A DNA stretch of 35,981 nucleotides from a virus. Below are positions 15,996 through 32,835 of the stretch, one piece after another. The notes beneath the pieces are model-generated. The model saw only the letters and a program-made list of their open reading frames with translations. It ran no database searches and was not told where the DNA came from. Made by a program: the position numbers and the translations under genes. Every line of letters begins with the position of its first letter. Position 1 is the first letter of the stretch. The DNA lies in the IMG/VR virus record IMGVR_UViG_3300039018_000259, positions 1-35,981 of that record; one strand, written 5' to 3'.

Positions 15996-16005
15996 AATTT
16001 ATTCC

Positions 16006-17349: not shown

Positions 17350-17362
17350 AATTCTCCAAAAG

Positions 17363-17392: not shown

Positions 17393-17425
17393 ATGATTTG
17401 CGGTTGAAACTTAGAGAGGTGTTAC

Positions 17426-17521
17426 ATGGAATTCACTGAATTCATGCTTTGGAAGGCACTAGCCTTGCTTGTCATCATTGCAATATGGGAGTTTTATCGA
17501 GGCTTTACTGGGCGGCGCTAA
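17426..17521 (+). CDS. Isolated plus-strand membrane micro-protein (31 aa)
   Basis: 31 aa, MEFTEFMLWKALALLVIIAI ending WEFYRGFTGRR. One transmembrane helix and a basic tail. A GAGG site lies 6 bases before the ATG, and a TATGAT -10-like hexamer lies at 17392-17397. It is the only plus-strand gene within about 20 kb of minus-strand late genes and overlaps the 3' end of the ejection-protein gene by 17 bp. That placement suits a moron gene expressed independently of the late operon. Confidence 0.5.
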   Translation: MEFTEFMLWKALALLVIIAIWEFYRGFTGRR

Positions 17522-19352
17522 GTGCGGGAGCCAACTTGTACATGAGCTGTTGACCTTCTTGGCTTGTTAGCAGCTTCATCAAAGCATTTTTCTCTGCGGG
17601 CGAACCAGTCATTGCGCCAGTAAGCGACTTAGAGTTCATAAGCGCATTAGCCAGTCTTCCAGCACCAGCGCCACCAGCTACCGCAACCGGCCCAGCAGTT
17701 AATCCGCCAACTGTTCCAACCACAGCCCGTTGCATAGAACCGTGAGCACTTTCCCTTGCTTTTACGAATTGGGCGGCAATGTCTGCAAGCTCCTGCAATG
17801 GCTTGTTATTGATGTTTTGCATGTTGCCCAAACGTGCCGCTGAAATTTCACCTTCTGCACCGTTTTTGGCAAGTTTTTCAAGCGCAAGCATGTTGCCGTA
17901 TTGCTCTCGGGTTTTGGCAAATGCAGCCGCCCCATCAGCACCTAAAGAGCGGTCTAGCGCGTCCATCAACTTACCTTTTAACTCAAGCGCATGGAAAGCT
18001 GTCGTGGTGTTGCCGCGTCCAAGCCGGTCAAGTTCTCGCTTGATGTTGTAAGCAGCTTGCCCATCAATCTCGCCTGTGGCACCCTTTGCCATTAGGTCAT
18101 CTATGTTTTTTGTAATGGGCTTTAAGGCATCCGCGCCAAGCTCACGCTCTGCTTTGTTGTAGACGTTTGCTAAGTCTTCCAATAAAGTCTTATCGACTTT
18201 TACAGAGTTTTTGCTTAGTACATTGTCAAACTCAGAACCAAGTTTGTCGCTGGCTTTGCGCAGTGCCATTGTCACGTTGCTGGAGTCTTGGCCGAAAGTT
18301 CTAGAAACAGCTTTATTTAGTTGCGAAGCCATCGCATCCTCTGTTGCTGCGCGGCCACTCATTGGAATGTAATTCAGCGTAGAGGCCAAGGCATTCATTG
18401 GCCTGTTGTTTACTAACCTATCAGCAGGAATATCAACACCCAATTCTTTTGCGCGTCTTGCCAGTGCAGCCACATCATCTGACACAGTAGAACGCAATGC
18501 GTTAGAAATCTTGTTCCAAATTGCGCCAGAAGTTGCGCCTACAGCTTTTGCAACAACAGGAAACGCACCTCCAATTGCCGCTCCAGTAGCTGCGTCTTCT
18601 GGATTTACCATGCCAGCTTGTAATCCGCCTGAAATAGCACCACCACCAGCCCTTGTAGCTAGGTTTGCAAGCGCATTGCCTCCAGTTGCCCCCGTAGTCA
18701 TGCCAGATGTGCGAATCGCGTTAAGCAATGGCGCGGCATTGTTTGCCAATACGGGCACACGGCCCAAGGTTTGAGCAAGTGCACCACCAGCGCCCGCAGT
18801 GCCAGCTATTTCGCCGCCAATCTTTCCAACTGCAAAAACGGTCGAATCCGTGTCAACGCCCATTAACCGCAATCCATTAGTCATGGCTTCACGGCGAACT
18901 TCGTCACGGCTTGGTTCTTTTTTGCCGCCAGTCACCAAGTCGGAAAGCGATTTATTGCTAACGCCGTTAAACGTGTTGTAAGCCTTCTTTACTTCGTCTA
19001 TGGCCTCTGGCACTTTATCAATCGGGCTAAACCGAAGCAAGGTGGAGCCAATAGAACCAGCGCCACGCACAAGCCCACCCGCCACATTCTGCGCAGTACC
19101 GCCCTTTTCAAAGAAACCCGGCCCAGCCTCTTTGCGCGCTTGCACCTGTTGTAGATAGGTGTCGCGGTCTATGACATTGGGCGCGTTTGGGCCTTTAGGC
19201 GCAGAATTACGACCACCGTCAAGTGCAGTTACTTGCTTGCCAAACTCTTTGGAAGCCCTAGCCTCTACAGCGTCAGGCGTAACATCATCAGGCGCATTCT
19301 GGTAAGTGTGGCTAGTGCCATCAGCAAAAGTTACTGTGATATTGCGTGCCAT
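17505..19352 (-). CDS. Large ejection (internal virion) protein
   Basis: 615 aa, MARNITVTFADGTSHTYQNAP. A short beta domain at the start is followed by a Gly/Ala-rich membrane-active region (about 150-280) and a long helical C-terminal part. This composition, together with its position after two further injection-type genes and before the fibre, matches the ejection proteins of P22-like phages (gp7, gp16, gp20 functions) that form a channel through the envelope. No muramidase motif is obvious. The ATG is 2 bases after the previous stop. Confidence 0.7.
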   Translation of the reverse strand: MARNITVTFADGTSHTYQNAPDDVTPDAVEARASKEFGKQVTALDGGRNSAPKGPNAPNVIDRDTYLQQVQARKEAGPGFFEKGGTAQNVAGGLVRGAGSIGSTLLRFSPIDKVPEAIDEVKKAYNTFNGVSNKSLSDLVTGGKKEPSRDEVRREAMTNGLRLMGVDTDSTVFAVGKIGGEIAGTAGAGGALAQTLGRVPVLANNAAPLLNAIRTSGMTTGATGGNALANLATRAGGGAISGGLQAGMVNPEDAATGAAIGGAFPVVAKAVGATSGAIWNKISNALRSTVSDDVAALARRAKELGVDIPADRLVNNRPMNALASTLNYIPMSGRAATEDAMASQLNKAVSRTFGQDSSNVTMALRKASDKLGSEFDNVLSKNSVKVDKTLLEDLANVYNKAERELGADALKPITKNIDDLMAKGATGEIDGQAAYNIKRELDRLGRGNTTTAFHALELKGKLMDALDRSLGADGAAAFAKTREQYGNMLALEKLAKNGAEGEISAARLGNMQNINNKPLQELADIAAQFVKARESAHGSMQRAVVGTVGGLTAGPVAVAGGAGAGRLANALMNSKSLTGAMTGSPAEKNALMKLLTSQEGQQLMYKLAPALSAAQ

Positions 19353-19354
19353 GC

Positions 19355-20629
19355 TTACCACCCGCTCACAGATGCACCGCTAGGCGTTTTTTCTGGTGGA
19401 GTGGCTGCTTGTGCAGCTTTCGGCCCACGTATATCGCTAACGATACGCTCGCGGCGAGACTCTGGAACGTCGATCAATACGCCGCGAGTTGCGGCCTCTC
19501 GGTTCGCCTTCTTTTGCGCGATAACTTGTGGCGTGTCGCCAATTTGCGGGAAATACTGCAAATTGGCGTTGGCAAATTCAGAGTCACCAATCACCGCGCC
19601 TGATTCACGGCGAAGCACCGCATTTAAAAAATTTCGCTTTGCCTGCATTAGTTGTTGTTGGTCGTTAGAGGATAAGCCGCTAACCAAAGTTCCAACACCA
19701 TAACCAGCATTCATGCCGGGTGTTGATTTTTCTGTACCGCCTTTTGCAAGCGTGTCTAATATGTCGTTGGCTTCCTGCATGCGTGCGCCAAATAGGGCAG
19801 ATTTAGACTGCCCCTCGGTCAATGGCTTGTTGTCTTGGGCAATGCGGTTAGCTTCGCGTGAATTTTCGTTTAGATCACGCGCCCGAAAATCTGCGAGTGT
19901 CTGCCCACGCATTTGTACTGCACGGTTAGCCGCACCTTCTGCCGCTTGTCGTGCATTGCTTGCTGCGTTGTCGGCGCTTTGGGTAATAGGTGCGCTGCCA
20001 ATTGTGGTAAGTTGGCCGGTTGTAGAGTCAAAAACCTTATCAACCATAGAGCCCCCCATGTTTTGGCTAACGTGTTTAACAAGCTGCTCTTTTGCGTCAA
20101 GTGATGATCTAAAGGCAATATCAGCCAAGCGGCCAATATCTGCCGGGTTAGCTGCAACTTGTGCTTTGTATTGGGCTACCAAATCAGGCGTATAGACACC
20201 ATTTGCACCAAGGTAATCAAGCACGGCATTGGCGTTTTGAAGCGTAGGGCTTTGGCGCACTTGGTTGAATGCGCTTCCTGCAATGTCTAGTTTCTTTCTA
20301 GCAGTCTCAAAGTCTTTAGCGCTTGCCTCTGAGCCAATCTTTCGGCGCTCTAGCACGCCTTTGTCTAGCTTATCGGCTTCGTCAAAATAGCCGCCGCCCT
20401 TAAGTGCTGCACTGCGTTGGTCATCCGTAGCGTCACCGGGTAAGCCGCCCATTAGCTGGACAAGTTTGTTTTTGCGCTCTACGCCTTGACGGTATTGGTC
20501 TTGCTCCATTTCGCCGCGTGCTATGTTCTGCTGCGCGCCTTGGATTTGCAAAACCTTTGCCAGTTGGTTTACAGGCGATTCAAACTGAATTGGGTCAACG
20601 CCGCGTGCGATTAGTTCATTGATTGGCAT
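19355..20629 (-). CDS. Ejection protein (gp16/gp20-like function)
   Basis: 424 aa, MPINELIARGVDPIQFESPV. Mostly helical and Gln/Ala rich. The C-terminal segment QAKRNFLNAVLRRESGAVIGDSEFANANLQYFPQ is a motif I know from injection proteins of many tailed phages. It lies between two other ejection-type genes, 2 bp from the next. The role in DNA delivery is inferred from order and composition. Confidence 0.7.
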   Translation of the reverse strand: MPINELIARGVDPIQFESPVNQLAKVLQIQGAQQNIARGEMEQDQYRQGVERKNKLVQLMGGLPGDATDDQRSAALKGGGYFDEADKLDKGVLERRKIGSEASAKDFETARKKLDIAGSAFNQVRQSPTLQNANAVLDYLGANGVYTPDLVAQYKAQVAANPADIGRLADIAFRSSLDAKEQLVKHVSQNMGGSMVDKVFDSTTGQLTTIGSAPITQSADNAASNARQAAEGAANRAVQMRGQTLADFRARDLNENSREANRIAQDNKPLTEGQSKSALFGARMQEANDILDTLAKGGTEKSTPGMNAGYGVGTLVSGLSSNDQQQLMQAKRNFLNAVLRRESGAVIGDSEFANANLQYFPQIGDTPQVIAQKKANREAATRGVLIDVPESRRERIVSDIRGPKAAQAATPPEKTPSGASVSGW

Positions 20630-20638
20630 TGTTTATCC

Positions 20639-21337
20639 TTATCCGTAACCGGCATTACCGTAAAGTGCTGCACGATCTGAGTTCCCGCTACCTGGAATAA
20701 CTGAATAGTTCGGTCTACCACCACTAATCAAATTCATTAATTGGTTGTTTTGGTAGTTGTTCACACTGCCTTGAATAGCACCACTCCAAGCATTAGCCTG
20801 CCCAAGCTGCCCAGCGCCGTAAGCGTCACCGGCAGCGCGTGTGTTTGCGCCTTGTTGTTGCCCAAAAGCCATGTCGTTTGATGCTTGCCCAGCGGCTGAG
20901 TTTTGGCCCTGCGTAGACACGTTAGACAGGCGGTTAAAGCTGTTTTGAAACTCTTGCGATGCCATGCCTTGCCCGTAGCGTTGCAGCGCTTTTAATGCAC
21001 CACCTGACAAGGTAGAACCCCTAGCGGCTGCACTGTTATCCACTTGCCGCTGACCTTCTTGTAAGCGGAATGCATAACCGGGGTCTTCGCTGGCAAAGTC
21101 AGACGCGGGTTGACCATCCAAGCCGAGCATTCGCGCCAGCCTATTGTTTGCCTGCTCTCCAGACTTGCGCCAAGGCTCTAGGCGTGTTTGTAGGCGTGTT
21201 TGTGCTTCAGCGCGTGCGACTGCGGCTTCTTCGCTTGCTCGTTGTGCTGCGTCAGCCGCCGCGCTTGCTGCTGATCGTGATGCACTAGCGCTGATTAAGC
21301 CGCCTACTATTGGCCCTGCTATTGCTGCTGCTGGCAT
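20639..21337 (-). CDS. DNA transfer/ejection protein (gp7-like)
   Basis: 232 aa, MPAAAIAGPIVGGLISASAS, with a GAAGGAA site. A short hydrophobic Gly/Ala start is followed by a charged helix (AAQRASEEAAVARAEAQTRLQTRLEPWRKSG) and SGGALKALQRYGQGMASQEFQNSFNRL, typical of short podovirus DNA transfer proteins. It is the first of three ejection-protein genes. Confidence 0.7.
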   Translation of the reverse strand: MPAAAIAGPIVGGLISASASRSAASAAADAAQRASEEAAVARAEAQTRLQTRLEPWRKSGEQANNRLARMLGLDGQPASDFASEDPGYAFRLQEGQRQVDNSAAARGSTLSGGALKALQRYGQGMASQEFQNSFNRLSNVSTQGQNSAAGQASNDMAFGQQQGANTRAAGDAYGAGQLGQANAWSGAIQGSVNNYQNNQLMNLISGGRPNYSVIPGSGNSDRAALYGNAGYG

Positions 21338-21789
21338 GTGTGTTCCTTCTTTGTTATACCTAGCTGTGTCATATCTAGGAGTTGTCCGTCTTTTAGAAAA
21401 CTTTGGCGGTTGTTGCCTTCGACAACCATACCGCAGCGCTTGGCATATCTCAAGGCCAGCGCATTTGTTTGTGGCACTTGCGTTACCACCTTTTCGCAAT
21501 TCGTGTTTGCAAAAATCCAGTCAAGCACTAGCTTTCCCGCTTGCTTTGCCTTAGCCCCCCATGCAATGGGTAGAAGGCATGTGTGTATCTCGTAGGTCAC
21601 GCAGTTATGCGGGTGCACTAGGTACATGCCTAGGCTTTGCTCGTCTACAACTTCAAGCCACAGCACTCCGTTTATTGGCGGTGCGTATGTGTCTAGGCTG
21701 CACGAATCGTCAGCCACATGCGGCCAAATAGCGGGATGGGTTACTGTTGCTTTAATCGCTGCTTCGTCCAGTGTCTGGACTATTTGCAT
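21319..21789 (-). CDS. P22 gp14-like GNAT-fold protein (DUF2824 type)
   Basis: 156 aa. It contains CLLPIAWGAKAKQAGKLVLDWIFANTNCEKVVTQVPQTNALALRYAKRCGM, an acetyltransferase (GNAT) core with the N-A-LRYAKRCGM segment of motif B. P22 gp14, a small virion-assembly protein of similar size, belongs to a GNAT-like family and occupies the same gene position between gp26/gp10-type genes and ejection genes. Whether it has enzyme activity is unknown. Confidence 0.65.
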   Translation of the reverse strand: MQIVQTLDEAAIKATVTHPAIWPHVADDSCSLDTYAPPINGVLWLEVVDEQSLGMYLVHPHNCVTYEIHTCLLPIAWGAKAKQAGKLVLDWIFANTNCEKVVTQVPQTNALALRYAKRCGMVVEGNNRQSFLKDGQLLDMTQLGITKKEHTCQQQQ

Positions 21790-22043
21790 TAAACAATCGT
21801 TCCAGCTGCGTCACGCCACACGGCAGGCTTAACCGCCGCTACATAGACCGGCTTGTTTAGCGTTGTGTCGTAATACTGGCGACCAATCCAAAGCTGTGAT
21901 GTGGGTCTTTGCGCTGTAGTGCCTGATTCTTGGCCGGTCAGGATAATCAAGTGCCAGCGACCAAATACAGCTTCCCAACCCATAGTCGGCTTTTTGTCGT
22001 CGCCTACTAGCTCTGTGCCTGCTGGGTAGTCAAATCCACTCAT
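21789..22043 (-). CDS. Small tail/structural protein (84 aa)
   Basis: 84 aa starting MSGFDYPAGTELVGDDKKP at 22043 (ATGA overlap with the gp10-like gene). The C-terminal QLWIGRQYYDTTLNKPVYVAAVKPAVWRDAAG is a short conserved segment of phage tail proteins, a strand-rich 'Y.DTTL.KP..' unit. It sits in the tail-needle gene position but is far too short for a full needle. Confidence 0.6.
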   Translation of the reverse strand: MSGFDYPAGTELVGDDKKPTMGWEAVFGRWHLIILTGQESGTTAQRPTSQLWIGRQYYDTTLNKPVYVAAVKPAVWRDAAGTIV

Positions 22044-23440
22044 TTCAACTTGCCCCAAGCGGCAACAAAGACGGTTTTAACCGGGTCGGTCACTCGGAAT
22101 CTAAAAAGCCAATCACGCGCTCGGCCCAATCGGTTAAACACAGCACGCGCCTTGTACTTTCCCATCGCGCCAATGTCGCGCCATATTTCAGTACCCCATT
22201 CATGCCCACCGTCGCGGCTTATTTGCATCATCAATTGCGGGGCTACGCCTTGGCCTAGGTTTAGGCCAACACCGGATTCCATCTCCAGCCACATGGTAGA
22301 AAACTGCGTAAAGTTACCATTTGATACATGTCGCCCAACAAACTCGCGCACAATCATGGCGCCATCGTCGGTGTATACGCCTTCTTGGAAACGGTACAGC
22401 TTGCCATTTGCGTAGTCGCTCACATAGTTTTTAGACAGTAGCTGCACTTGCATTTCTGCCCTGTGTCTGCCGCTTGTGCCGTATTGAACTTTCGACCAAC
22501 TTTTGCTCTGTCCGTCAAAGAGCCATGATTCGTTAGGCGTTGGAAAATTGATCTGATACATCGCATGCCCGCTGAGCATGTATGTAAAGGCTGTGGCGTC
22601 ACTGGTGGCTGAATACTGACTAAAGATGTAATCCATCTCAGGCGTTGACACAGCCTGCGCAGACGCGCCAGATTGAATGCACACTTGTATTTGCCCTAGG
22701 CGGTTCTTGCGCAGGAATATCAGCGCATCCATGTATTTGCACAGTGAGGCCCTAGCAGCTAAACCCCACTCAATAGCAAATGAACCCACCCGCGCATAGG
22801 GGAAGTCAGCAGCGCCAGAATCACCCCAAAACTCGATTGTCTTATCACCAAATAAGCACAAGCTGCCACTATCTGCAATGACGCGCACTAGGTTGTCCGG
22901 GTCGCTCTCAGCCGTTGCATAGTCCAACGCATCCCAGCTCAAACCGTCATACAACGCGGATATGTAGAACTCGCCACTGTTGGGCTTATTAACCACAAAG
23001 CGACCATTAAAGAATGTGACCGTTACAGCGCCTGGAAAGTCCACATCCGTGATCTGCGCAAAAACTAAGGTATTGAAGTTATAGATATACCCGCTGGTGC
23101 CATCTACTAGCATTAATTGCGTGCCGTTATCAGCAAAGTACACACGCCCGCTGGAAGTGTTTAGTAGCGTACCCAGCACCGTCGTGGTGCCTGCGTTGTT
23201 GATCGAGTACAGCGTAAGGCCAACCACTGCATATAGCACCTCACCACGCTCGTAGATGCCACGGATTGGATTTAGGCCAAAGTTGACAAATACAGACAGC
23301 CCCGGCGTGGGGTACAGCGTGAGAATGTTTTTTTCAGGGTCGCTCTGTACTTCTACATACAGGTTTACCCGGCTTTGAGCATCTACATTGGCAGACTTGC
23401 CTTTATTGCCTAGGCCAAAGAGCGGTACAGGGTTAAGCAT
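22040..23440 (-). CDS. Packaged-DNA stabilization / tail hub protein (gp10-like)
   Basis: 466 aa, close to P22 gp10 (472 aa). Repeating strand-rich blades (GIYERGEVLYAVVGLTLYS, GRFVVNKPNSGEFYISALYDG) and DKTIEFWGDSGAADFPYARV suggest a beta-propeller-like body. It follows the gp4-like adaptor, the same order as in P22. It would bind below the portal and adaptor and close the filled head. Confidence 0.8.
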   Translation of the reverse strand: MLNPVPLFGLGNKGKSANVDAQSRVNLYVEVQSDPEKNILTLYPTPGLSVFVNFGLNPIRGIYERGEVLYAVVGLTLYSINNAGTTTVLGTLLNTSSGRVYFADNGTQLMLVDGTSGYIYNFNTLVFAQITDVDFPGAVTVTFFNGRFVVNKPNSGEFYISALYDGLSWDALDYATAESDPDNLVRVIADSGSLCLFGDKTIEFWGDSGAADFPYARVGSFAIEWGLAARASLCKYMDALIFLRKNRLGQIQVCIQSGASAQAVSTPEMDYIFSQYSATSDATAFTYMLSGHAMYQINFPTPNESWLFDGQSKSWSKVQYGTSGRHRAEMQVQLLSKNYVSDYANGKLYRFQEGVYTDDGAMIVREFVGRHVSNGNFTQFSTMWLEMESGVGLNLGQGVAPQLMMQISRDGGHEWGTEIWRDIGAMGKYKARAVFNRLGRARDWLFRFRVTDPVKTVFVAAWGKLK

Positions 23441-24125
23441 TGCGGTAGTTCACAAAGCCATCCATGGGGATGCCGTAAGGCATAGATAGGCGGGGTACTT
23501 CGGTATTAGTGCGCTTGATAACTTTGCGCGCTTGCATGGCCTTTTTTGTAATGTCAGGAGATACAGGCGCATCAAACTCAGGCCCAATCTCTTGCGCCAA
23601 ACAATACGTCAATGCACGCTCGTAGCCGGGTGGTAGTGTGACCACATCCGTTAGGCTTGCAAACGATTGCAATGCCTTGTTTGACCACAGGTTGAGCGTC
23701 ATGGTCGCACTTGGAACGGGCCAAAGCTGTACCCTAATATTTGGCATATTTGGCAAAACGTGCAGTATTGTTGGGATGCCTTGTGTGGTTTTTGTTGGAA
23801 TTTTCTCGTAGTCAGTCAGTGTAAAAATGGAAAGTGGATAATCAACGCCTTCAAACTGAATGTGTGAAGCTTCCAAAACCTCTACAGGTCTTTCGGTAAT
23901 CGTTTGGCCACTTGGCCCTACTGTATGGGAAACTACACCAGCACTAAAGTTTATTACATTGAGCGTTTTTGCATAAATGAAAAGGTTTTCATTTGACCAC
24001 GACTCCACCATTGCATTAAGCGCAAACAATGCTTCAGCGCTTTCGTCTGCTGATGGCGTTTCTCCAATGGAGTAAACACCAAGCAGCCGCATTGACCGCT
24101 TGATAATGTCTAACGCTGTTGTCAC
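23433..24125 (-). CDS. Head-to-tail adaptor (P22 gp4-like)
   Basis: 230 aa, MTTALDIIKRSMRLLGVYSIGETPSADESAEALFALNAMVESWS. This is the helical start of the P22 tail accessory factor family (P22_Tail-4), followed by YERALTYCLAQEIGPEFDAPVSP, which is conserved too. It binds the portal and starts tail assembly. It overlaps the gp10-like gene by 8 bp. Confidence 0.85.
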   Translation of the reverse strand: MTTALDIIKRSMRLLGVYSIGETPSADESAEALFALNAMVESWSNENLFIYAKTLNVINFSAGVVSHTVGPSGQTITERPVEVLEASHIQFEGVDYPLSIFTLTDYEKIPTKTTQGIPTILHVLPNMPNIRVQLWPVPSATMTLNLWSNKALQSFASLTDVVTLPPGYERALTYCLAQEIGPEFDAPVSPDITKKAMQARKVIKRTNTEVPRLSMPYGIPMDGFVNYRNA

Positions 24126-24287
24126 TTAGTCAGCCTTTGCGGGGCGACCGCGTTTTGGCTTGTCAGCCACTTCACCAGTTAAAGCGAGTTCTGCTTCTTT
24201 GTCTTCACAAAGTACAGGCTCGTTCTCTCCAACAGTCACCCACTTGGGGAACTCTTGGAAAACATAGGGGGTTGTATCTTCTTGCAT
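24126..24287 (-). CDS. Small acidic protein with basic tail (53 aa)
   Basis: 53 aa, MQEDTTPYVFQEFPKWVTVG ending DKPKRGRPAKAD, with an AGGA ribosome site. Short proteins with a PKRGRPAK tail are frequent between head and adaptor genes. The tail resembles an AT-hook. Function unknown. Confidence 0.65.
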   Translation of the reverse strand: MQEDTTPYVFQEFPKWVTVGENEPVLCEDKEAELALTGEVADKPKRGRPAKAD

Positions 24288-24295
24288 GATGTTTC

Positions 24296-24754
24296 CTACA
24301 AGCTAAAGCCGTGGGCCACTACTGCGGCATTGGTGTTGCCAGCGCCAAGGGCAGGCAAAGACACCACAATTGCGGTATTAACCGCAGATGCGGGTAATGG
24401 TGGGTTGAACTCGATAATCAATGGGGTGAGTCCGACCGTTGCACCAGTGGGCGCGGCTACGGAATAGGTAGCAGTACCACCTAATAGGCCGGTAATAGTG
24501 AGTGAAACCACACTGCCAACGGTAGCGCCAGCGCCTGTGACTTCAAAGCCAGCGATATAACTCAGCCGTGAAGCTGTGGCGGGAATGGTTGCGGCTGCGG
24601 TTGCGTTGGCTACGTTACCGCTGGAAAAAGTTGTTGCAGGGCCATAACCCTGATAAACCATCGTCGTGCCATCGTAGGCCCACGGCCCTGCACCATCATT
24701 TCGCGTGTAGAAACCGGACTGGTTTCCAACAAAGTTTTTTGGGATTGAAGCCAT
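24296..24754 (-). CDS. Structural protein, probable head decoration/fibre (152 aa)
   Basis: 152 aa, MASIPKNFVGNQSGFYTRND, then an almost pure Thr/Ala/Gly/Val strand region. Composition and place after the coat gene suggest a surface protein of the head. No named family recognised. Confidence 0.6.
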   Translation of the reverse strand: MASIPKNFVGNQSGFYTRNDGAGPWAYDGTTMVYQGYGPATTFSSGNVANATAAATIPATASRLSYIAGFEVTGAGATVGSVVSLTITGLLGGTATYSVAAPTGATVGLTPLIIEFNPPLPASAVNTAIVVSLPALGAGNTNAAVVAHGFSL

Positions 24755-24762
24755 TTTTATCC

Positions 24763-24792
24763 TTAAAAAGCAGGGAGCCGAAGCCCCCCGCT
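24763..24792 (-). terminator. Intrinsic terminator after the 235-aa structural gene
   Basis: Minus-strand stem of about 9 bp: 24783-24791 pairs with 24770-24778, with G-U pairs and a CUUCGG-type loop. TTTTT follows (24765-24769). It separates the two decoration-type genes. Confidence 0.65.
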
Positions 24793-24801
24793 AGTTACAA
24801 C

Positions 24802-25509
24802 TTAGACCGTGTACAACTGAACCACGCAACCTACAGCGGTTGTGAAAGTGGTCGGGATTGTCAACGTAGCAGGCACCGTGCCAAAAGTACCTGTTGAAGA
24901 AGTTGTCATTACATTAGCGCCGTTGGCCGCAACAAGTTTGTTAGTGGTCGCAGTGGTGCCGTTGGATTGAACGCCGATAAAGTAACGACCCGGTGCCAGA
25001 GTTACAGGCACAAGGAAGTCACGATTTTGGAACGTAGATGCACTAGCAGACAACGTGCCCGCGACAGCACTATTGGCAATCAGTGCACCATTGGAGCCGT
25101 AAAGCGCCACTAGCATGTTGTCGGTTCCAACAGTGGTTCCATTGAGTACGCCTGCACCTTTCCAGGTGTTCCAGTACGGAACAAAAATTTCCGTCAAGTT
25201 CATGGTTCCAGCCACATGTACGGACGAAGTACCCACCGCAGTCAGTGCCGCACCACCCAAAGACACGCAAGGCAGGATTGCCGGGCCTTGCAAAGTAACT
25301 GGATTGCTTTGTCCAGCTTGAGGCATCAAAGCGATATTGCCGCCCTGTGTGACATAGCCAGCCGGGGCACCAACAACCGAAGCTGCAGCGGTGGTTATTG
25401 ATGCGGTGGCCAATCCTTGTGCGATCAACGCTGCTTCTGTGGAGTCTGGAAGGGTAACGATAGCGCCAGAGGCATAGCCTGCATAAGCGCGAAGAAGAGT
25501 AACTGCCAT
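24802..25509 (-). CDS. Structural protein, probable head decoration (235 aa)
   Basis: Starts MAVTLLRAYAGYASGAIVTL at 25509 with an AGGA site. The first 35 residues (DSTEAALIAQGLA) resemble the short N-terminal domain found in several phage head-fibre and decoration proteins. The rest is strand rich with PYWNTWKGAGVLNG and VTLAPGRYFIGVQSNG, a jelly-roll-like carbohydrate- or protein-binding module. It lies directly after the coat gene and a terminator. Confidence 0.6.
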   Translation of the reverse strand: MAVTLLRAYAGYASGAIVTLPDSTEAALIAQGLATASITTAAASVVGAPAGYVTQGGNIALMPQAGQSNPVTLQGPAILPCVSLGGAALTAVGTSSVHVAGTMNLTEIFVPYWNTWKGAGVLNGTTVGTDNMLVALYGSNGALIANSAVAGTLSASASTFQNRDFLVPVTLAPGRYFIGVQSNGTTATTNKLVAANGANVMTTSSTGTFGTVPATLTIPTTFTTAVGCVVQLYTV

Positions 25510-25534
25510 GATATTTTCCTTTGAAAAGAGTTGA

Positions 25535-25553
25535 GAAAGCCCCCGAAGGGGCA
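25535..25553 (-). terminator. Intrinsic terminator after the coat gene
   Basis: GCCCC-TTCG-GGGGC stem on the minus strand (25539-25552) followed by TTTCTC. UUCG is a very stable tetraloop. It would reduce transcription beyond the coat gene. The T-run is short. Confidence 0.6.
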
Positions 25554-25562
25554 TTCAATTGG

Positions 25563-26771
25563 TTAGGCTACGATCTTGCAGGCCAATTCGGGATACGTTG
25601 CCGCCCATCCGAATAGCACGTCAAGTCGCATGATGTTGTTGTCGTTCACACCGTCATAGAACTGAGTCACTTTCACAGTGAATCCGTCATCAGACATTTG
25701 TGTGACCTTTGCACCTGTGCCGTTCATTGGCTCGTACATGGGAACCATTGCCAAGGTGAAAGCGTCGCGGTGATACAACACGTTAGTGTCATAAGAGGCA
25801 GATGCAGCACCCAAGAAAGTGATTACTGCCGAGTTAGCGGGCGATGCGGTCACGTTCTGGAATGGGCCAGAGGTAACGATTGCAGGGCTGATTGAGAACG
25901 ATGTTCCGCCGTTGGCTACGTTGGCGGTCAGAACGAACTGCTGCGCCGAACCAGTATCTTGGCGAGACTGTGGGTTGACAGCGTTCACACCACCAATAAT
26001 GAAAACAGAGCCAGCCGTAGCCGTACCAGTAATCGCGTTCACAGTCAAAGTAGCGCCTGTTTGACCGGCACCGTTAACCGTATTGGCAGCCAGTACAGTC
26101 GTGCCGTTGGTGTGGCGTGACACGTTTTGATCAAGTGCAACACTCAAGCCCAAGCCTTCGACATACATGCCAGAGCTGTATTGCTTGCTTATAGTGGATT
26201 GATTGTTGAACAAACCAGCCATACCAGTGACCAAAGAGGCGTTCATCAGTGGGTTAACCACCAATGCGCGCTGCATGTCACGGGGTGCGCCCATTTCGTC
26301 CAGCTTTTGCTGTCCAGCCAAAACGGTGCTTAGTGCCAATGCTTGTGTATTGGGCACAGTACCCACAGCGCCTACGGCGTTGTACACAGCGCGGCGAGCA
26401 AGATCAAGGCCTTGGCGGTCGATCTCATTCACCACAGCAGCAACACCGGCTTGCATCTTTTGCTCAAACTGTTGAACGGACAAAGTGCGCTCAAAGCTGG
26501 TGAAAGACAAGTCAGTACCGCCTTGTGAGAGGGTCAGCGGAATGCTGGTCTCAGTGGTAGCTTGAGGCACCGACACACGGCCTGCGCGGTAAGTATAGCG
26601 TGGTGGGCGCTTGATGTTGATGGTTTGACCGGGAGAGTAGCCACGGCCTTGATTCGAGCCGAACTCGCTCTCAAAGTCGCGGTTTACGTTCTTGGCAAAA
26701 CCAAGCATGTTTTGGAGAATCGCCAAGGCTTCTTTTGCCACCAGCGAGGAGGTAACGAGTACGTTAGACAT
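25563..26771 (-). CDS. Major capsid protein (P22 gp5-like)
   Basis: 402 aa (P22 coat is 430 aa). MSNVLVTSSLVAKEALAILQNMLGFAKNVNRDFESEF, then PGQTINIKRPPRY, and RVSVPQATTETSIPLTLSQ are the N-arm and first strands typical of P22-type coat proteins. VLYHRDAFTLAMVPMYEP occurs near the C-terminal part. It builds the T=7 head on the scaffold encoded just upstream. Portal, scaffold and coat are in P22 order. Confidence 0.9.
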   Translation of the reverse strand: MSNVLVTSSLVAKEALAILQNMLGFAKNVNRDFESEFGSNQGRGYSPGQTINIKRPPRYTYRAGRVSVPQATTETSIPLTLSQGGTDLSFTSFERTLSVQQFEQKMQAGVAAVVNEIDRQGLDLARRAVYNAVGAVGTVPNTQALALSTVLAGQQKLDEMGAPRDMQRALVVNPLMNASLVTGMAGLFNNQSTISKQYSSGMYVEGLGLSVALDQNVSRHTNGTTVLAANTVNGAGQTGATLTVNAITGTATAGSVFIIGGVNAVNPQSRQDTGSAQQFVLTANVANGGTSFSISPAIVTSGPFQNVTASPANSAVITFLGAASASYDTNVLYHRDAFTLAMVPMYEPMNGTGAKVTQMSDDGFTVKVTQFYDGVNDNNIMRLDVLFGWAATYPELACKIVA

Positions 26772-26798
26772 TTGGTTTATTCCTTATAAAAAATTGAG

Positions 26799-27587
26799 TT
26801 AACGTGCCCAACGTGCGCCCTGCTTTGCTCGCATTGCTTTGTAGCTAGCGAAATCGGCAGAACTCAAATCGAGCGATGTGCCACCACGCGAACCCGATAC
26901 GGGGCTGATAGGTGGGCTTGCTTTGGTTGTCTTGGGAGATTGTTGGAGCTTTACTTCTAACTTTCCAAGCTCTACGGCTTGACGTGCGTCTGAGAGTTTT
27001 GCGATGCGCTCGACTTCTTCGGGGTTGGCACTCATGTACGCCATCAACTGCGGGGCAACATCACTTTCGATCAGTACCGCTGCGATTGACTTTGTAAGTG
27101 GCAGTTCATCAAAGCTCTCTCGGTCAAAGCCTGCGACCTTTTCCGCTTTCGCGTAAATGTCTTCGGTCTTTTTCCATAGCTCTGCTTGTGATTGCCGCGT
27201 GGCATCTTGCGCCTTGGCAGTGTCACGCTGTTGCAGCTTGTATTCCACCTTGGCATCAATCCATTCAGCATCACTTGCGAACTGGTCGCGTGTCGGCTCG
27301 TTTGATGTTTGGCGTTGTACTGGCTGGGTTCGCGTTACCGCTTCCAATGCTTCCCGATAAGCCTCTTTTGCGCGTCTTTCGGCTCTTGCTTCAGACTTGG
27401 CCAACCGCTTTTGCAGAATTTCATCTAACTCTTTTTGAGTAAACGTCTTTTCCGCAGCCGGAGCTTCTTTCTCAGCGTCGGGGGTCTCCGTATCCTGTTC
27501 GCTGGTCTCTGTTTTTACCTGTTCAGTTTCAGGGGTTGTTGCTTCGATTGTTTCGGGCGCAACTGAGCCTGTCTCGTTTTCAGACAT
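26799..27587 (-). CDS. Scaffolding protein (P22 gp8-like)
   Basis: 262 aa. A Glu/Thr-rich acidic start (ETEQVKTETSEQDTETPDAE), a highly charged helical middle with KTFTQKELDEILQKRLAKSEARAERR, and a basic C-terminus (KAMRAKQGARWAR) that should bind the coat protein. Composition and position between portal and coat identify the scaffold. Confidence 0.8.
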   Translation of the reverse strand: MSENETGSVAPETIEATTPETEQVKTETSEQDTETPDAEKEAPAAEKTFTQKELDEILQKRLAKSEARAERRAKEAYREALEAVTRTQPVQRQTSNEPTRDQFASDAEWIDAKVEYKLQQRDTAKAQDATRQSQAELWKKTEDIYAKAEKVAGFDRESFDELPLTKSIAAVLIESDVAPQLMAYMSANPEEVERIAKLSDARQAVELGKLEVKLQQSPKTTKASPPISPVSGSRGGTSLDLSSADFASYKAMRAKQGARWAR

Positions 27588-27634
27588 TTAACTTACCTTC
27601 CGTTGGGAACCCCGATGCGCTCGGGTAGCGACCT

Positions 27635-29854
27635 CTATTGAGGCGGTTGCAGGCCTTCTTCAGGCGTAAAAAAAGCCCCTTGTGGGGCTTCTTGTTCAAT
27701 CTGTTGTCCTAGCATTTCAGGCGGCTCGCCATATTCAGGCATTTCAGGCTCTTCTTCATATACCTCTTGCACTGACTCAGCAGGCGCTGGCGCTTCTAAT
27801 AGTTGCTGCACAGTCTGCATAACCAAAGCTTGCACTTGCTCTGGTGTCATGGCTGCACCAAGTACCTTTAGGCGGTTGGTTTCAGCGTCAAAAGCCTTAA
27901 TGCCTAGCTCGGCTTGCTTGCTATTGCTTTCAGCCTCTAGTTCATCAGCGTGCTTGGCCGCAGCCTCTAGCGCTTGGCCTAATTGCTCTACTTGCTGCTG
28001 CATTTCCTGCATTTGCTGCTGCACCTGTGGCGGCAACTCTTGCTCGCCTTCTTTTTTGTCCAGCAAGTTAGGCGGTAACGTCTTTTCAAGCCGTTTCGCC
28101 ATCTCTTCGGCCATTGGGAAGTCATACGAGCGCATCACAATATCGCCAGCTACTTGCATGATCTGCGGGTTGCGGTTGGTTAGCTCTGTGAGCGTATCTG
28201 CGGCCTCTTGGCGTTGGGTTTGATAGCTTGGCCCTGTGCTAATAGCCACGTCATAGCGGCCCATGAGCGGGTTGAATATCTTTTGTATCTCTCCAGCTTC
28301 GTCGCCCTGCGCTTCGCCATAAGGCTGCTGCATCTCAGGGTCTAGCACAGCTTTAGATTCTTTGCCATCCAAACCGAGTATGCGCACAATGCGTTTGGTG
28401 TCATAAATCTTGGGTATCAGGTCAACCAGTACGCGCATTTCATACGTTAGAGCGCGGGCTAGGTTGTCAGGGAAATGGAATGTTGCAATCTCGCCTTGTG
28501 CTTTTAGGCGCTGGATGCCTACACCACTGGCCGCCTCAGACTTAATGCCAAAGTTTGCATTTTGTTGGCCAGATGCTGCGCGCATTTCCTCGGTGGACAG
28601 TTGCAGCATTTGCACCTGTGCGCTAGGCATAACGGCAGGAGCTTGGCGCTCTGGCTTGGGCAGTTGCCGCCCTTCCTCGTCGTAGGCATTCCACGGCAAA
28701 TAGGCGCGGTTTTCAAGGTTCGCAGCGCCCCAAATATCTTCGAAGTTCTCGATTGATTCAGACGATGCCAAATACGGCACTTTGTTTTGCAGTGCCAACG
28801 TTTCCACAGATGCGCTGTACGAGTAATTCACCATGCGCGCCGGGTCTTTGAGGTCGCGCACAATGCCCTTGCGCACAATCTCGCCGTTTACGTTTAGCTC
28901 TTTGCCTACAACTGTAATGATGGGCAGATAGCTACCGGGCCATTCTTTTTTATCTACCGGCTCAGTCTCGCCGCCTACTAACTTACACCAGTACCATTGC
29001 TTTGTTTTAGTCTCGCGCTGGTTCACAATGGCAAACACTTGCCCATCAAGTAGCGTTAAGAACTTGCCTGCAATCTTTGCGCCTTCTGGCAGCTTAGATT
29101 TAAGCGCTGTAGTACCGTCGCCCAGCAATAGCAGGGTATCTGGAACAAAGTCGCAATAGAAGTATTCGGCAATCCGAATCATGTCCTTTTGCACCCAGCC
29201 ACGGTCACCGTCTTGCGCCCAGCTTGAAGGGTCAAGATCGGGAAACTCTAGCTTGCATTCTTCGGGGCTTAGGTCTTCAAAGATAAAGCCCCACTTAGCA
29301 TCGGAGCGGTCAGGCTCTATGGCATCCGGGTCGATATAGACAAGCTGCGGGTTTACCAGTGGCTTAATCGTGATTACTTGGTCGAAGCTGGTCTCAGTCT
29401 CGTACTCATTCAGAACGCGCCAATATCCTTCACCACCGTAGATGGCGTGTTCTGCGGCTATGTCGTGCGCTGTGTCTGCATTGCTGTAGCTCTGGATAGA
29501 ACGGCATAACCCGCCCAATATCTCTGCTGTGTCAGGGTCTGCTAGGTTATCAACAGGCAGCACGCGCCCACTAGGACGATTCTGGCGAATGCTATTGATG
29601 ATTTGGTTGCAGTGCTGCGCTGTCAGGTTGATTGTGAGACAAGGCTTTTTTTGCACCTCGGCGCGGCTTGTGTACACATCCTCGGGCCATTGCCAATTGT
29701 TTTCACTGTCACCCATCACAAAACGAGTGTCTGCAATAGCTTGCTGGCGCAATGTGTCGTATGCATCACGGGCGCGTTGATAGCGCTTGCGTGCAATGTC
29801 AACGATGGATTGTTTGCCTTCGTCTTTATCCACGGATGGCCTCCGATACAGCAC
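27635..29854 (-). CDS. Portal protein (P22 gp1-like)
   Basis: 739 aa (P22 portal is 725 aa). Conserved parts include DSENNWQWPEDVYTSR, KPCLTINLTAQHCNQIINSIRQNRP and NANFGIKSEAASGVGIQRLK. It ends in a long Gln/Glu-rich helical barrel domain (VQQQMQEMQQQVEQLG). The dodecameric ring is the packaging channel. A full intrinsic terminator is embedded in the last codons of the gene. Confidence 0.9.
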   Translation of the reverse strand: MLYRRPSVDKDEGKQSIVDIARKRYQRARDAYDTLRQQAIADTRFVMGDSENNWQWPEDVYTSRAEVQKKPCLTINLTAQHCNQIINSIRQNRPSGRVLPVDNLADPDTAEILGGLCRSIQSYSNADTAHDIAAEHAIYGGEGYWRVLNEYETETSFDQVITIKPLVNPQLVYIDPDAIEPDRSDAKWGFIFEDLSPEECKLEFPDLDPSSWAQDGDRGWVQKDMIRIAEYFYCDFVPDTLLLLGDGTTALKSKLPEGAKIAGKFLTLLDGQVFAIVNQRETKTKQWYWCKLVGGETEPVDKKEWPGSYLPIITVVGKELNVNGEIVRKGIVRDLKDPARMVNYSYSASVETLALQNKVPYLASSESIENFEDIWGAANLENRAYLPWNAYDEEGRQLPKPERQAPAVMPSAQVQMLQLSTEEMRAASGQQNANFGIKSEAASGVGIQRLKAQGEIATFHFPDNLARALTYEMRVLVDLIPKIYDTKRIVRILGLDGKESKAVLDPEMQQPYGEAQGDEAGEIQKIFNPLMGRYDVAISTGPSYQTQRQEAADTLTELTNRNPQIMQVAGDIVMRSYDFPMAEEMAKRLEKTLPPNLLDKKEGEQELPPQVQQQMQEMQQQVEQLGQALEAAAKHADELEAESNSKQAELGIKAFDAETNRLKVLGAAMTPEQVQALVMQTVQQLLEAPAPAESVQEVYEEEPEMPEYGEPPEMLGQQIEQEAPQGAFFTPEEGLQPPQ
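27668..27690 (-). terminator. Intrinsic terminator inside the 3' end of the portal gene
   Basis: Minus-strand stem AAGCCCC-ACAA-GGGGCTT (27673-27690) is followed at once by seven T (27668-27674, overlapping the stem end). It is textbook and lies about 33 bp before the portal stop, so it encodes part of APQGAFFTPEEG. A polymerase stopping here would give a portal mRNA without a stop codon and no scaffold or coat transcript. Confidence 0.75.
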
Positions 29855-30188
29855 CAGCCACAGTGTTTAATTTGGTTTTGTAGACCTGCGGCATACGGGC
29901 CATTAAGCGAACTGGCTTTGTTTGTATGGTCGCAAAGCCGAAGCGCTCATACCAAGGCGTTAGATTTTCCAGCCCTACTTGACCAAACGGCTTAGGGTTG
30001 AGCATCAGCACAACGCCTTCAATGTCTGCGTCTTCAATGATCGACTTCATCAACTCAGTAGCAAAGCCTTCTTTGCGATGCTCAGGGTCAGTCCATACAC
30101 GGACTACTTCCAGCACACCGGGAGCGCTTGGAATGTTGGCTGATACAACCTCCGCGCTGCTGTGTTCGTTGCTGTAGTGTTTGTTCAT
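29826..30188 (-). CDS. GNAT acetyltransferase
   Basis: 120 aa. VLEVVRVWTDPEHRKEGFATELMKSIIEDAD is the acetyl-CoA binding motif A (R/Q-x-x-G-x-A), and LTPWYERFGFATIQTKPVRLMARMP is motif B. A complete small GNAT enzyme encoded in the terminase-portal interval, where many phages carry accessory genes. Substrate unknown. Its first 12 codons are duplicated upstream (30405-30441). Confidence 0.75.
   Translation of the reverse strand: MNKHYSNEHSSAEVVSANIPSAPGVLEVVRVWTDPEHRKEGFATELMKSIIEDADIEGVVLMLNPKPFGQVGLENLTPWYERFGFATIQTKPVRLMARMPQVYKTKLNTVAGAVSEAIRG
30152..30188. repeat. 37-bp direct repeat, copy 1
   Basis: Identical to 30405-30441. On the minus strand it encodes the start of the acetyltransferase (MNKHYSNEHSSA). 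The repeats flank the 68-aa gene, consistent with a duplication or an insertion that carried that gene in. Confidence 0.85.
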
Positions 30189-30191
30189 TGT

Positions 30192-30398
30192 TTATTTGTC
30201 CAAGTCGTCTGCAACTTTTCTTAGAAGCGCTGCCAACTGCTTTGCCTCTATTGGGAGTGCAAAATCAAAGCCGAAATTCTTAAATTCTGGCGTTGCGTAG
30301 GATGTGCTAAACCTTAGCGATTGCGCAGACTTACCGCAATCACTTACAAAGTGCTCTATTTGGGATACATCAGTAATTTGCATATTTAAGCCATCCAT
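30192..30398 (-). CDS. Small phage protein (68 aa)
   Basis: 68 aa. MDGLNMQITDVSQIEHFVSDC, then FGFDFALPIEAKQLAALLRKVADDLDK. The start may be Met6. The C-terminal PIEAKQLAALLRKVAD looks like a helix-turn-helix or interaction segment. No family recognised. It lies between the two copies of a 37-bp repeat. Confidence 0.5.
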   Translation of the reverse strand: MDGLNMQITDVSQIEHFVSDCGKSAQSLRFSTSYATPEFKNFGFDFALPIEAKQLAALLRKVADDLDK

Positions 30399-30441
30399 CC
30401 ACCGCCGCGCTGCTGTGTTCGTTGCTGTAGTGTTTGTTCAT
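30370..30441 (-). pseudogene. Truncated copy of the acetyltransferase start (23 codons)
   Basis: ATG at 30441 overlaps the previous stop and reads MNKHYSNEHSSA, as in the acetyltransferase, then diverges (AVDGWLKYANY) and stops. It is either the original 5' end of the acetyltransferase, cut off by insertion of the 68-aa gene, or a duplicated translation start that now serves as a coupling leader. Confidence 0.5.
30405..30441. repeat. 37-bp direct repeat, copy 2
   Basis: Exact copy of 30152-30188, 253 bp away in the same orientation. Confidence 0.85.
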
Positions 30442-30581
30442 GTTTTGAAATACAAAAAGCCGTCTTTTACATCTAAGTTCTCAGGGTGTACAAAGAAAGG
30501 CTTGGCAGCGTTTAGGAACTGCTGGTCTGTCATATCCTTAAAGGCTGGCGCAAACCGCATTTTGTTTAGGTCGTCTAGCAT
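30438..30581 (-). CDS. Small protein after the large terminase (47 aa)
   Basis: 47 aa, MLDDLNKMRFAPAFKDMTDQ ending KDGFLYFKT. Start overlaps the TerL stop (TGATG) and stop overlaps the next ATG. No family recognised. The overlaps indicate translation from the late mRNA. Confidence 0.6.
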   Translation of the reverse strand: MLDDLNKMRFAPAFKDMTDQQFLNAAKPFFVHPENLDVKDGFLYFKT

Positions 30582-31924
30582 CAAGTCATCCAAGAAAGTC
30601 CACCATGTACGCGGTGAACATTTGCTTTTGTTTCTTTTGGCTCTTTCGGAGCCTTAATCATTCCGGGGAATAGTTCAGAAAGCACCCATATCCATGCATC
30701 AGCACGGTTTGGGCTTTTATCGCCTAAGTAGCCACTGGTGCTAAATGCCACCAGCTCGTCTTCCAACTCGTGGAAGTCACCCACATGGCGAACCTTGCCG
30801 TTTTCATACAAAGCGCTAAATGGTTCTGCCCTTACTGCCTTACCTCTTGACGCTGAAACCGCCTTAAATGGAGTTCTAGGGCGTGCCGTTTGTATGGTTT
30901 GCTTCACCATTGCACCGCCGTAGTTAATCTCTCCAACAATCACATCGGCTTCATGCCTATCAAATGCGCTTGTTGCCACACGGCCCCAAGTAGCTGGCCC
31001 AGCCTTTACAGTGCAGTCTTCCAATAGATAGGCATTGCCATCTACACCCAGCGCACCTACGCAAATGCCGATTGCATCGTTATCAGCGTTGTCCACATCA
31101 TCCGAGCCGCTAGGGTCAACCCCCACAACTACACGGACAAAATCAGGCAGCACGCCATCAATAACGCGCCATTTATCAATCACCTCATCAGTAAATAAGG
31201 CGTTAGGCGTTGCGTCTGCAAACTCACCTTTAAGAAAGCGCTTTTGCAGCCGTGCGCTTAGGCTTTTCAGTGTGTCTAGATACCCAGCCGATACGTTTTC
31301 GCTGTTGTCCTGCGGGTTAATCTGGAAATATGCGTAATCCATCGGGTTTGGTAGCCCAATCTTTGTGTCAGGGTCGCGCTTTTCTACAAATAACCGGTAT
31401 GTCCAATGCACCTTACTAGGCGGATTGCAGTCGTAGTACATGCGCGGCTTCATGGGCCTTACTTCTCGCCCATCAATCACCTGGTTAACTTGCTGCGCCA
31501 GTCGTGTGACTGCTATATCTCGTGAGCCTTGGGGTATCTGTGACGCTTCATTTAAGTAGATGGTCACAAACTCCATTCCGAGAATTTTCTCGGTGCGCTC
31601 TTTATCGTCTAACCCTGCAAACCATATTTGCGAGCCGTTTTCAAACTCTGCAAACCAGTCTGTTTTACTTAGCGTGTATTTCACGCCAGGGAATGCCAGC
31701 TCCATCACCTTGGGGAACGTGTCCATAACCACGGATGCTTTGATGGCGTTAAACCGAAACCGCAATATGGCGTGGCGGCTTTTGGGTGCTTTGAGCGCCC
31801 TCATGCACACATTGCGCACCAATAGGAACGTCTTACCAGAGCGTGACCCCCCAAATAGCATGCAATGCGTGGCCTCACCAGCCAAAACTTCTTGCGCTGC
31901 CTCTTGCTTTGCCGTTAGTTTCAC
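30581..31924 (-). CDS. terL: Terminase large subunit
   Basis: 447 aa. Walker A GGSRSGKT (25-32), a Walker B-type VTIYLNEA near 120, then the RNase-H-like nuclease with VVVGVDPSGS, VGEINYGG and SPNRADAWIWVLSEL as the acidic sites. It translocates DNA into the prohead and cuts it by headful. It overlaps TerS by 4 bp and precedes the portal region, as in P22-like phages. Confidence 0.95.
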   Translation of the reverse strand: MKLTAKQEAAQEVLAGEATHCMLFGGSRSGKTFLLVRNVCMRALKAPKSRHAILRFRFNAIKASVVMDTFPKVMELAFPGVKYTLSKTDWFAEFENGSQIWFAGLDDKERTEKILGMEFVTIYLNEASQIPQGSRDIAVTRLAQQVNQVIDGREVRPMKPRMYYDCNPPSKVHWTYRLFVEKRDPDTKIGLPNPMDYAYFQINPQDNSENVSAGYLDTLKSLSARLQKRFLKGEFADATPNALFTDEVIDKWRVIDGVLPDFVRVVVGVDPSGSDDVDNADNDAIGICVGALGVDGNAYLLEDCTVKAGPATWGRVATSAFDRHEADVIVGEINYGGAMVKQTIQTARPRTPFKAVSASRGKAVRAEPFSALYENGKVRHVGDFHELEDELVAFSTSGYLGDKSPNRADAWIWVLSELFPGMIKAPKEPKETKANVHRVHGGLSWMT

Positions 31925-32220
31925 AAACGCTCGTCAAGTGTCGAGGCTGCAATCACTACTGGGCCACCGCCTTTGCCGGTTAGCTCAGTACGTGCCAGCT
32001 TGGGAATGTGATATTCCACAACACTCTGGAACAACTCAAACGCCTTAGCTGGATTTGGCTTGTTGTCACCATCCCCCATTGCAACACTATCAAGCCATCC
32101 AGTGAGTCTGTGAGCGTTTTCATCCACAAATAAGGCAATGGCCTCTCTAGCGTCCTTTGTGGCTTTGCCCGGCCCTCTATTTCCTTGATTTGGCTTTTTT
32201 TCGCCTTTTTTAAAAGTCAT
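31921..32220 (-). CDS. terS: Terminase small subunit
   Basis: 99 aa. Basic start (MTFKKGEKKPNQGNRGPGKATKDAREAIALFVDENA), helical middle, and AFELFQSVVEYHIPKLARTELTGKGGGPV at the end, a pattern of short TerS proteins. It recognises pac and recruits TerL. Upstream is a CCCGG/CCGGG hairpin (about 32235-32255) that could be part of the leader or the pac region. Confidence 0.8.
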   Translation of the reverse strand: MTFKKGEKKPNQGNRGPGKATKDAREAIALFVDENAHRLTGWLDSVAMGDGDNKPNPAKAFELFQSVVEYHIPKLARTELTGKGGGPVVIAASTLDERL

Positions 32221-32302
32221 ATCCTGCCTTTCGGCCCCCGGATAACGCCGGGTGCGGTTTGTTAACGATAGAGCGGGGTTTTGCGCTTTGGCAAATGGCT
32301 CA

Positions 32303-32563
32303 CTACTCTGGCAAGGCTTGCTTCACCGCATATACGCAATTGCGTACAAACGAGGTGGAAGCACGCCTTGTCCTGTGAATGCACATGCGAAGCGCAATAC
32401 CGATTAGTTGCTGCGGCGACAATTCAAGCATGTAGCTGTCACCAGTTCCAGTTATCCGTATTACCTGCCATTTGCCTTTGCCGCCAAAGTGATCTAGTGA
32501 GACAGCATGTTGTCCAGGCCATCCACGGCGCTCTACAGGTGGAATGTCTAAATATGCAATCAT
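32303..32563 (-). CDS. Late-operon protein (86 aa)
   Basis: 86 aa, MIAYLDIPPVERRGWPGQHA, with LSPQQLIGIALRMCIHRTRR in the second half. The start overlaps the membrane micro-gene stop (ATGA). It lies between the late terminators and TerS. No family recognised. Confidence 0.55.
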   Translation of the reverse strand: MIAYLDIPPVERRGWPGQHAVSLDHFGGKGKWQVIRITGTGDSYMLELSPQQLIGIALRMCIHRTRRASTSFVRNCVYAVKQALPE

Positions 32564-32685: not shown

Positions 32686-32702
32686 TGGCAGGCACCTCAA
32701 AT

Positions 32703-32733
32703 AAAAAGCCACTCAGCATTACTGCGGAGCGGC
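32703..32733 (-). terminator. Late-switch terminator 2
   Basis: Minus-strand stem GCCGCTC (32727-32733) with GAGTGGC (32708-32714), one G-U pair, then TTTTTATTT. It lies 20 bp after the first terminator. Confidence 0.6.
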
Positions 32734-32752
32734 GAAAGATCGGCTGAAACGC

Positions 32753-32777
32753 AAAAAGCCAGCGGGTTAGGCTGGCT
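32753..32777 (-). terminator. Late-switch terminator 1
   Basis: Minus-strand stem AGCCAGC-CTAACCC-GCTGGCT (32757-32777) followed by TTTTT (32753-32757). It lies about 23 bp beyond the expected transcription start, so it ends a leader RNA of about 50 nt. Confidence 0.8.
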
Positions 32778-32806
32778 AAATTTAGGGCGAGTTATGCCCC
32801 AGATGC

Positions 32807-32835
32807 ATTTTCGGGGTATTTTTTGCCGTTGTCAA
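32807..32835 (-). promoter_or_regulatory. Late promoter (PR'-like)
   Basis: Minus strand: TTGACA (32830-32835, full consensus), 17 bp, GAAAAT (32807-32812). It reads straight into two intrinsic terminators and then the whole late operon. This is the layout of a Q-regulated late promoter in lambdoid phages. Confidence 0.65.

Follow-up and report, generated by a model that had tools for sequence, protein, structure and literature searches.

The closest described systems are the late switches of lambdoid phages, in which a promoter, PR', is followed by a terminator, tR', and then by the late genes, which are reached with the help of a Q-type antiterminator. The Q protein of lambda belongs to the family PF03589 (PMC7171158). 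The Q protein of phage 21 (Q21 or 21Q), a member of PF06530, is known to be similar to region 4 of sigma factors (PMC6606751). AlpA, from Pseudomonas aeruginosa, has the 21Q fold without sequence similarity to 21Q, and the bore of its ring, at under 14 A, is too narrow for a hairpin (PMC9371919).

Here, a comparable locus is described in a stretch of viral DNA of 35,981 nt (the window), which represents a complete phage genome of ~35,854 bp with an exact 127-nt direct terminal repeat. Judging from gene order, conservation and a predicted protein fold, the window very probably carries a lambdoid PR'-tR'-type late switch in which a 125-aa protein would serve as a Q21-type antiterminator.

Layout and conservation of the probable late switch

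On the minus strand, the early rightward operon opens with a Cro-like gene (6477-6662), continues with a replication gene, a methyltransferase gene and HNH genes, crosses the ends of the record, and finishes with the gene for the 125-aa protein. On the same strand, this gene is followed by a -35 element, a -10 element, a predicted transcription start at 32800, two terminators (T1 and T2) and the late operon. The features are as follows:

1-127 and 35855-35981: direct terminal repeat, 127 nt, exact identity
32854..33231, minus strand: open reading frame of the 125-aa Q-like protein, proposed late antiterminator; final early-operon gene
32830..32835, minus strand: -35 element TTGACA, 6/6; TTGAC or TTGC in aligned relatives
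32807..32812, minus strand: -10 element GAAAAT, 17-bp spacer; position conserved in aligned relatives
32784..32800, minus strand: 5'-terminal RNA hairpin GGGGC-AUAACUC-GCCCU, predicted +1 to +17; pairing conserved, sequence not
32779..32784, minus strand: -10-like element TAAATT, about +17 to +22; candidate sigma-dependent pause element
32753..32777, minus strand: terminator T1 (tR'-like), AGCCAGC-CTAACCC-GCTGGCT-TTTT, -11.5 kcal/mol
32699..32733, minus strand: terminator T2, GCCGCTC-C-GCA-GTAA-TGC-T-GAGTGGC-TTTTTATTT, about -12.7 kcal/mol
13302..32563, minus strand: late operon, 19 kb, start at 32563 or 32220, end near 13302

The late operon encodes small ORFs, the terminase large subunit, portal, scaffold, coat, connector and ejection proteins, an endolysin and Rz. 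Separately, a dispersed sequence of 80-110 nt occurs in three copies, 93-100% identical (204-313, 34733-34816 and 35643-35754), in the region upstream of the Q-like gene.

The promoter scores 10/12 overall and contains the sole perfect TTGACA among 16 promoter-like sites in 20 kb. The distance from the start to the end of T1 gives a predicted terminated RNA of ~48 nt, close to the leader of about 50 nt that had been proposed from the sequence at the outset, and T2 lies ~45 nt beyond; it was overlooked by the consensus scanner because of its internal mismatch. In the consensus scan, promoter-like and terminator-like sites are about as numerous in this region as in shuffled sequence; thus, the scan alone provides no evidence, and the case depends on conservation. 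Together, the minus-strand sequence and its conservation confirm the original prediction of a consensus -35 promoter reading into two terminators and then into a 19-kb late operon.

Relatives of the 125-aa protein were found in 31 viral contigs and at 7 genomic loci in six bacterial genomes, namely one Polaromonas metagenome-assembled genome (MAG) and, at six prophage loci, five further genomes of the same bacterial family; no relative was found among known phage records. A promoter-leader block lies downstream of the relative's gene at 22 of the 32 loci searched besides the window, on the coding strand every time, as detected with a sequence-only model that was trained on 14 of its sequences, the window's among them. 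The block follows the gene immediately or after a single additional gene, and in most relatives a terminator comes after it in the same place, with the same spacing from promoter to hairpin to terminator. A second, T2-like terminator is present in L004, L006, L010, L021, L042 and L052. With this model, and within the available flanking sequence, no leader was detected in some relatives (L031, L032, L036, L038 and L040).

The order of gene, promoter, leader and terminator is maintained down to 35-45% protein identity and persists even where terminase and portal are unrelated to those of the window. For example, L002 encodes a protein 91% identical to the window's, yet its terminase and portal are unrelated; therefore, the switch behaves as a module. 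The proposal of a PR'-tR'-type late switch, for which a comparison of synteny in related phages had been suggested, is supported by this retained order, which extends to phages with unrelated late genes.

Some relatives show further variation around the promoter. At least one extra gene or ORF separates the Q-like gene from the late promoter in L003, L004, L010, L017, L009, L024, L027, L034 and L043. In an alignment of 14 promoters, no common repeat or putative binding site was seen between -35 and -10. The -35 regions of the L009, L024, L027, L010 and L050 promoters have TTGACAAGCTCA in common, and within it AGCTCA could be a candidate binding element of this subfamily.

The leader hairpin and the -10-like element

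Two features go beyond the original prediction: a hairpin at the 5' end of the leader and a -10-like element behind it. The hairpin starts at or within ~2 nt of the predicted +1. Elsewhere, its place is taken by arms of other sequence, such as AGUUGG-ACAC-CCGACU (L002), GUGGC-AUA-GCCAC (L012/L030), AGGCA-UUCG-UGCCU (L029), GGGCGA-AAC-UCGCCC (L007), GGGCGC-AGCU-GCGUCC (L076), GGGGCG-CACU-CGUCCC (L079) and GGAGGCG-CUAG-CGUUUCC (L045). Because the register of the hairpin drifts, a fixed-register covariation count was dropped, and covariation was assessed by arm swapping instead. Across 28 distinct leaders, folding is stronger than in shuffled sequences (Fisher 4e-11), and exchange of 5' and 3' arms between phages weakens the fold, with 12 of 500,000 permutations as good as the native set (151 of 200,000 in an earlier set of 17 leaders); since the leaders are related by descent, these statistics are indicative, not exact. 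The signal is position-specific: no comparable effect appears when the tested segment is shifted upstream by 5 to 120 nt or downstream by 10 nt. Folding is weak in the leaders of L004, L017, L006/L019, L013/L041 and L033.

No structured RNA in the window was matched by Rfam 15 at the gathering score, and the exact 19-mer that 16 contigs share was not found in 400 genomes of the Polaromonas family. The pattern GCCTCTAAAAATAGCC is not diagnostic alone, as it also matches unrelated sequence (L063-L066 and L069-L072).

The hairpin is not confined to relatives of the 125-aa protein. The late leaders of lambda, P22 and phi80 can fold a hairpin at +1 too; for eight lambda-Q-type leaders, the folding test gives Fisher 1.4e-5 and the arm swap 0.015, with an exchange of C-G for G-C in YeP2. 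These leaders point to a structured RNA element that opens late transcripts across Q families, and no description of such an element was found in the literature searched. The generality of this claim is limited by the PF06530-type leaders of Burkholderiales prophages: by eye, L082, L084, L088, L090 and L107 lack the same hairpin, and L086 has it. No leader follows Q in Yersinia phage YP3 (L123), and the phage records vB_EcoM-683R1 and EKP1 yielded no clear comparison.

When the transcribed regions of the 28 leaders were scored for similarity to a -10 element, the maximum lay at a hexamer, YAAAAT, right after the hairpin, with a peak at +17/+18; the motif reaches at least 4/6 in 17 of the leaders and is weak in roughly one third. 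If 21Q and AlpA (PMC6606751, PMC9371919) are a guide, a sigma pause at this element would halt the polymerase near +30, with the hairpin just out of the exit channel. Such a pause would be in tension with a Q ring, which the RNA must thread single-stranded. The question raised is why a ring impassable to a hairpin should load on transcripts that start with one.

Stem-loops at an RNA 5' end impede RppH and RNase E, and the hairpin may plausibly, though tentatively, be a general protector of the 5' end of the leader and late mRNA that has no part in antitermination, a role compatible with the switch. The hairpin retains its pairing although its sequence varies freely, and it sits at the predicted +1 much as do the stem-loops at transcript starts of Emory 1992 and Bouvet and Belasco 1992, in the passage of PMC3997798 that cites them. 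Moreover, qut is annotated at roughly -16 to +14 in the P22 record, so that the 3' arm falls outside it and is probably dispensable for Q loading there; on this account, 5'-end protection is the leading guess for the hairpin's function. It leaves the regular A-rich -10-like motif after the hairpin unexplained, and the starts on which the comparison depends are predictions.

A more novel but unlikely reading is that the hairpin contributes to the working of Q-type switches generally: after the 5' end of the RNA had been threaded through the Q ring, it would fold outside and act as a stopper that locks Q onto the transcript or prevents the paused polymerase from sliding back. If so, the lambda-type and 21-type Q families, which are unrelated, would have converged on the same RNA device.

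It is improbable that the inverted repeat at +1 to +17 is instead a DNA operator for the 125-aa protein or another regulator. The two-fold symmetry near the start and a motif, AGNGG..CCNCCT, in some arms would suit an operator; however, the proteins of the window and L002, 91% alike, face wholly different arms, and diverged Q-like proteins face identical ones (the 19-mer shared by 16 contigs). Together with the drifting register, loops that vary from 3 to 8 nt and the presence of G-U pairs, this mismatch of arms and proteins favours an element that would act as RNA.

Other structures were seen behind the leaders of some relatives. A second structured RNA lies ~60-130 nt downstream of the leader hairpin, after T1 and, in loci where T2 is recognised, upstream of it, in L004, L005, L006, L008, L010, L012, L013, L017, L026, L027, L029, L035, L042 and L052; it is absent from the window. 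It consists of an outer stem of 6-9 bp, usually with one bulged base on the 3' side, an inner stem of 4-7 bp and a large loop, followed by ACC. Arm swapping was used here since MAFFT columns failed to line up the stems: none of 200,000 permutations matched the native pairing (native mean -21.8 kcal/mol, swapped -14.5 kcal/mol), and the sequence varies while the pairing is kept. In six of these loci, Rfam matched nothing except a tRNA elsewhere in L008. The element is possibly a packaging-site or leader RNA. By eye, a long stem (CAAAACGCATGCTGA ... TCAGCAGCCGTTTTG) follows the leader in place of a T-rich terminator in L033, L034 and L039, and a tRNA-like sequence is visible behind the leader in L034 and L037; these long-stem or tRNA-like structures lie at ~1150-1260 in L034 and ~3065-3140 in L037.

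The 125-aa protein

The gene upstream of the promoter had been named as the natural candidate for the antiterminator although not recognisably a Q protein, and curated models agree with that description. The 125-aa protein has no match in Pfam, PHROG or NCBIfam. When the window protein and 26 relatives were compared with PF06530 (Phage_antitermQ), PF03589 (lambda Q) and PF06323 (Q82), none matched at E up to 1. By curated model, the protein is thus not a member of PF06530, and by sequence it belongs to a new family.

More distant comparisons point to Q. PHROG 79 'Q-like' is the sole family matched by several of the 27 members, weakly, in five distant relatives (best E 0.0078). The L049 protein, which lies outside the 27-member alignment, has Phage_antitermQ as its sole Pfam match (E 0.059, below the cut-off), and the identical 19-nt leader was found behind it. 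When the family profile was compared with that of seven PF06530-type proteins from Burkholderiales together with L049, residues 8-87 matched with P 1.8e-5 and a probability of 78%. A PDB sequence search with the family profiles did not find Q21. Two sets of matches were set aside: those of the L047 protein in Acinetobacter phages are chance, lying mostly beneath endolysin or chitinase genes, and many matches to PF06530 are probably sigma factors, covering the C-terminal half only, inside longer frames.

Two AlphaFold models of the 125-aa protein, built from 13 and 36 sequences (pLDDT 79 and 80.5), predict an N-terminal helix and a sigma-region-4-like domain with a helix-turn-helix, as in the Q21 family. 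For both models, the top solved structure is the Q chain of the phage 21 loading complex (6p18_Q; Z 7.8 and 8.0), with 104 and 102 residues aligned over model residues 2-124, nearly the whole chain; the crystal structure of Q21 (6jny_A) matches with Z 6.7 and an rmsd of 2.8 over 88 residues. Domains of sigma region 4 come next (Z 7.1-7.3), as expected from the resemblance of Q21 to that region. Z values of 7 to 8 are modest, and the fold stays a prediction. The putative counterpart of the ring-forming segment (L1-H2-L2), which in the Q21 family enters the RNA exit channel, is residues 22-36 (GYQHVGGINTSPMFR), highly conserved in closer relatives and mostly modelled at pLDDT <50; the conserved linker that would form the ring (residues 24-41) is modelled at pLDDT <50.

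In all likelihood, the 125-aa protein functions as a Q protein. The suggestion that it defines a new family of Q-type antiterminator draws support from the predicted Q21 fold, the PF06530 profile, PHROG 79 and L049. With this assignment, a protein family overlooked by annotation in environmental phages, whose hosts are mostly unknown, acquires a name and a role open to testing; it has relatives also in prophages of the Polaromonas MAG and of its bacterial family.

Proposed mechanism and comparison with known switches

Host RNA polymerase with the housekeeping sigma factor would start constitutively at 32800 and make a leader of ~48 nt; without the phage protein, it would halt at T1 or T2. The 125-aa protein, as the product of the final early gene, would appear late in the early phase. 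From a putative DNA site, it would engage the polymerase soon after promoter exit, probably while sigma holds it at +17 to +22. It would then remain at the RNA exit channel as a Q21-type ring, or 'nozzle', that blocks formation of the terminator hairpins, and read-through would carry on across the 19-kb late operon. Taken together, the retained order of gene and leader and the Q21-like predicted fold lend good support to a PR'-tR' switch with a Q-type antiterminator.

Two other readings would dispense with antitermination. It is very improbable that T1 and T2 merely end the early operon, with a weak or unrelated promoter and late genes expressed from another promoter or through an activator. 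In favour of this reading, both terminators immediately follow the early operon on its own strand and would also halt early read-through; however, most relatives retain a promoter at constant spacing between gene and terminator, and nothing comparable occurs just downstream of T2, where the next candidate is at 32294 (9/12). Least probable is a sigma-like or helix-turn-helix activator of the late promoter: some phage late activators have a sigma-region-4-like domain, and the C-terminal half of the 125-aa protein resembles sigma region 4 nearly as closely as it does Q21, but the promoter is already near consensus at -35 and -10, the terminator within ~50 nt in most relatives would not be overcome by an activator alone, and the N-terminal helix and conserved linker fit Q21.

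With a PR'-tR' switch as the preferred reading, the locus can be set beside described systems. Lambda, P22 and phi80 have the same gene order, PR' then tR', with a different family of Q protein, and the position of the 125-aa gene matches those of annotated P22 gene 23 and phi80 Q. In lambda-type switches, the -10-like sequence sits at the very start of the transcript and not, as in the window, behind a hairpin. At the alpB promoter, the target of AlpA, the -10-like sequence is at -1 to +5 (PMC9371919). AlpA resembles the present case as a small antiterminator whose target promoter has an intrinsic terminator close by (PMC9371919), and is set apart, as described, by two extra helices and a host operon as its target. 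HK022 put RNA is likewise a structured nascent RNA near a phage promoter; it differs in being protein-independent and in its place in early operons (PMC9378689).

The closest counterpart is phage 21: its small Q protein is similar to the 125-aa protein over nearly the whole chain of the predicted fold, and its Q gene is immediately followed by a strong promoter, then a terminator and the late genes. Unlike phage 21 Q, the 125-aa protein has no significant Pfam match, and the TGAGCA direct repeats of the phage 21 binding element were not seen in the window. 21Q arrests polymerase at +14 (PMC6606751), whereas the -10-like element here lies at about +17 to +22, behind the hairpin. The type of switch is known; by sequence, the Q-like protein forms a new family, and the conserved 5' hairpin is new here.
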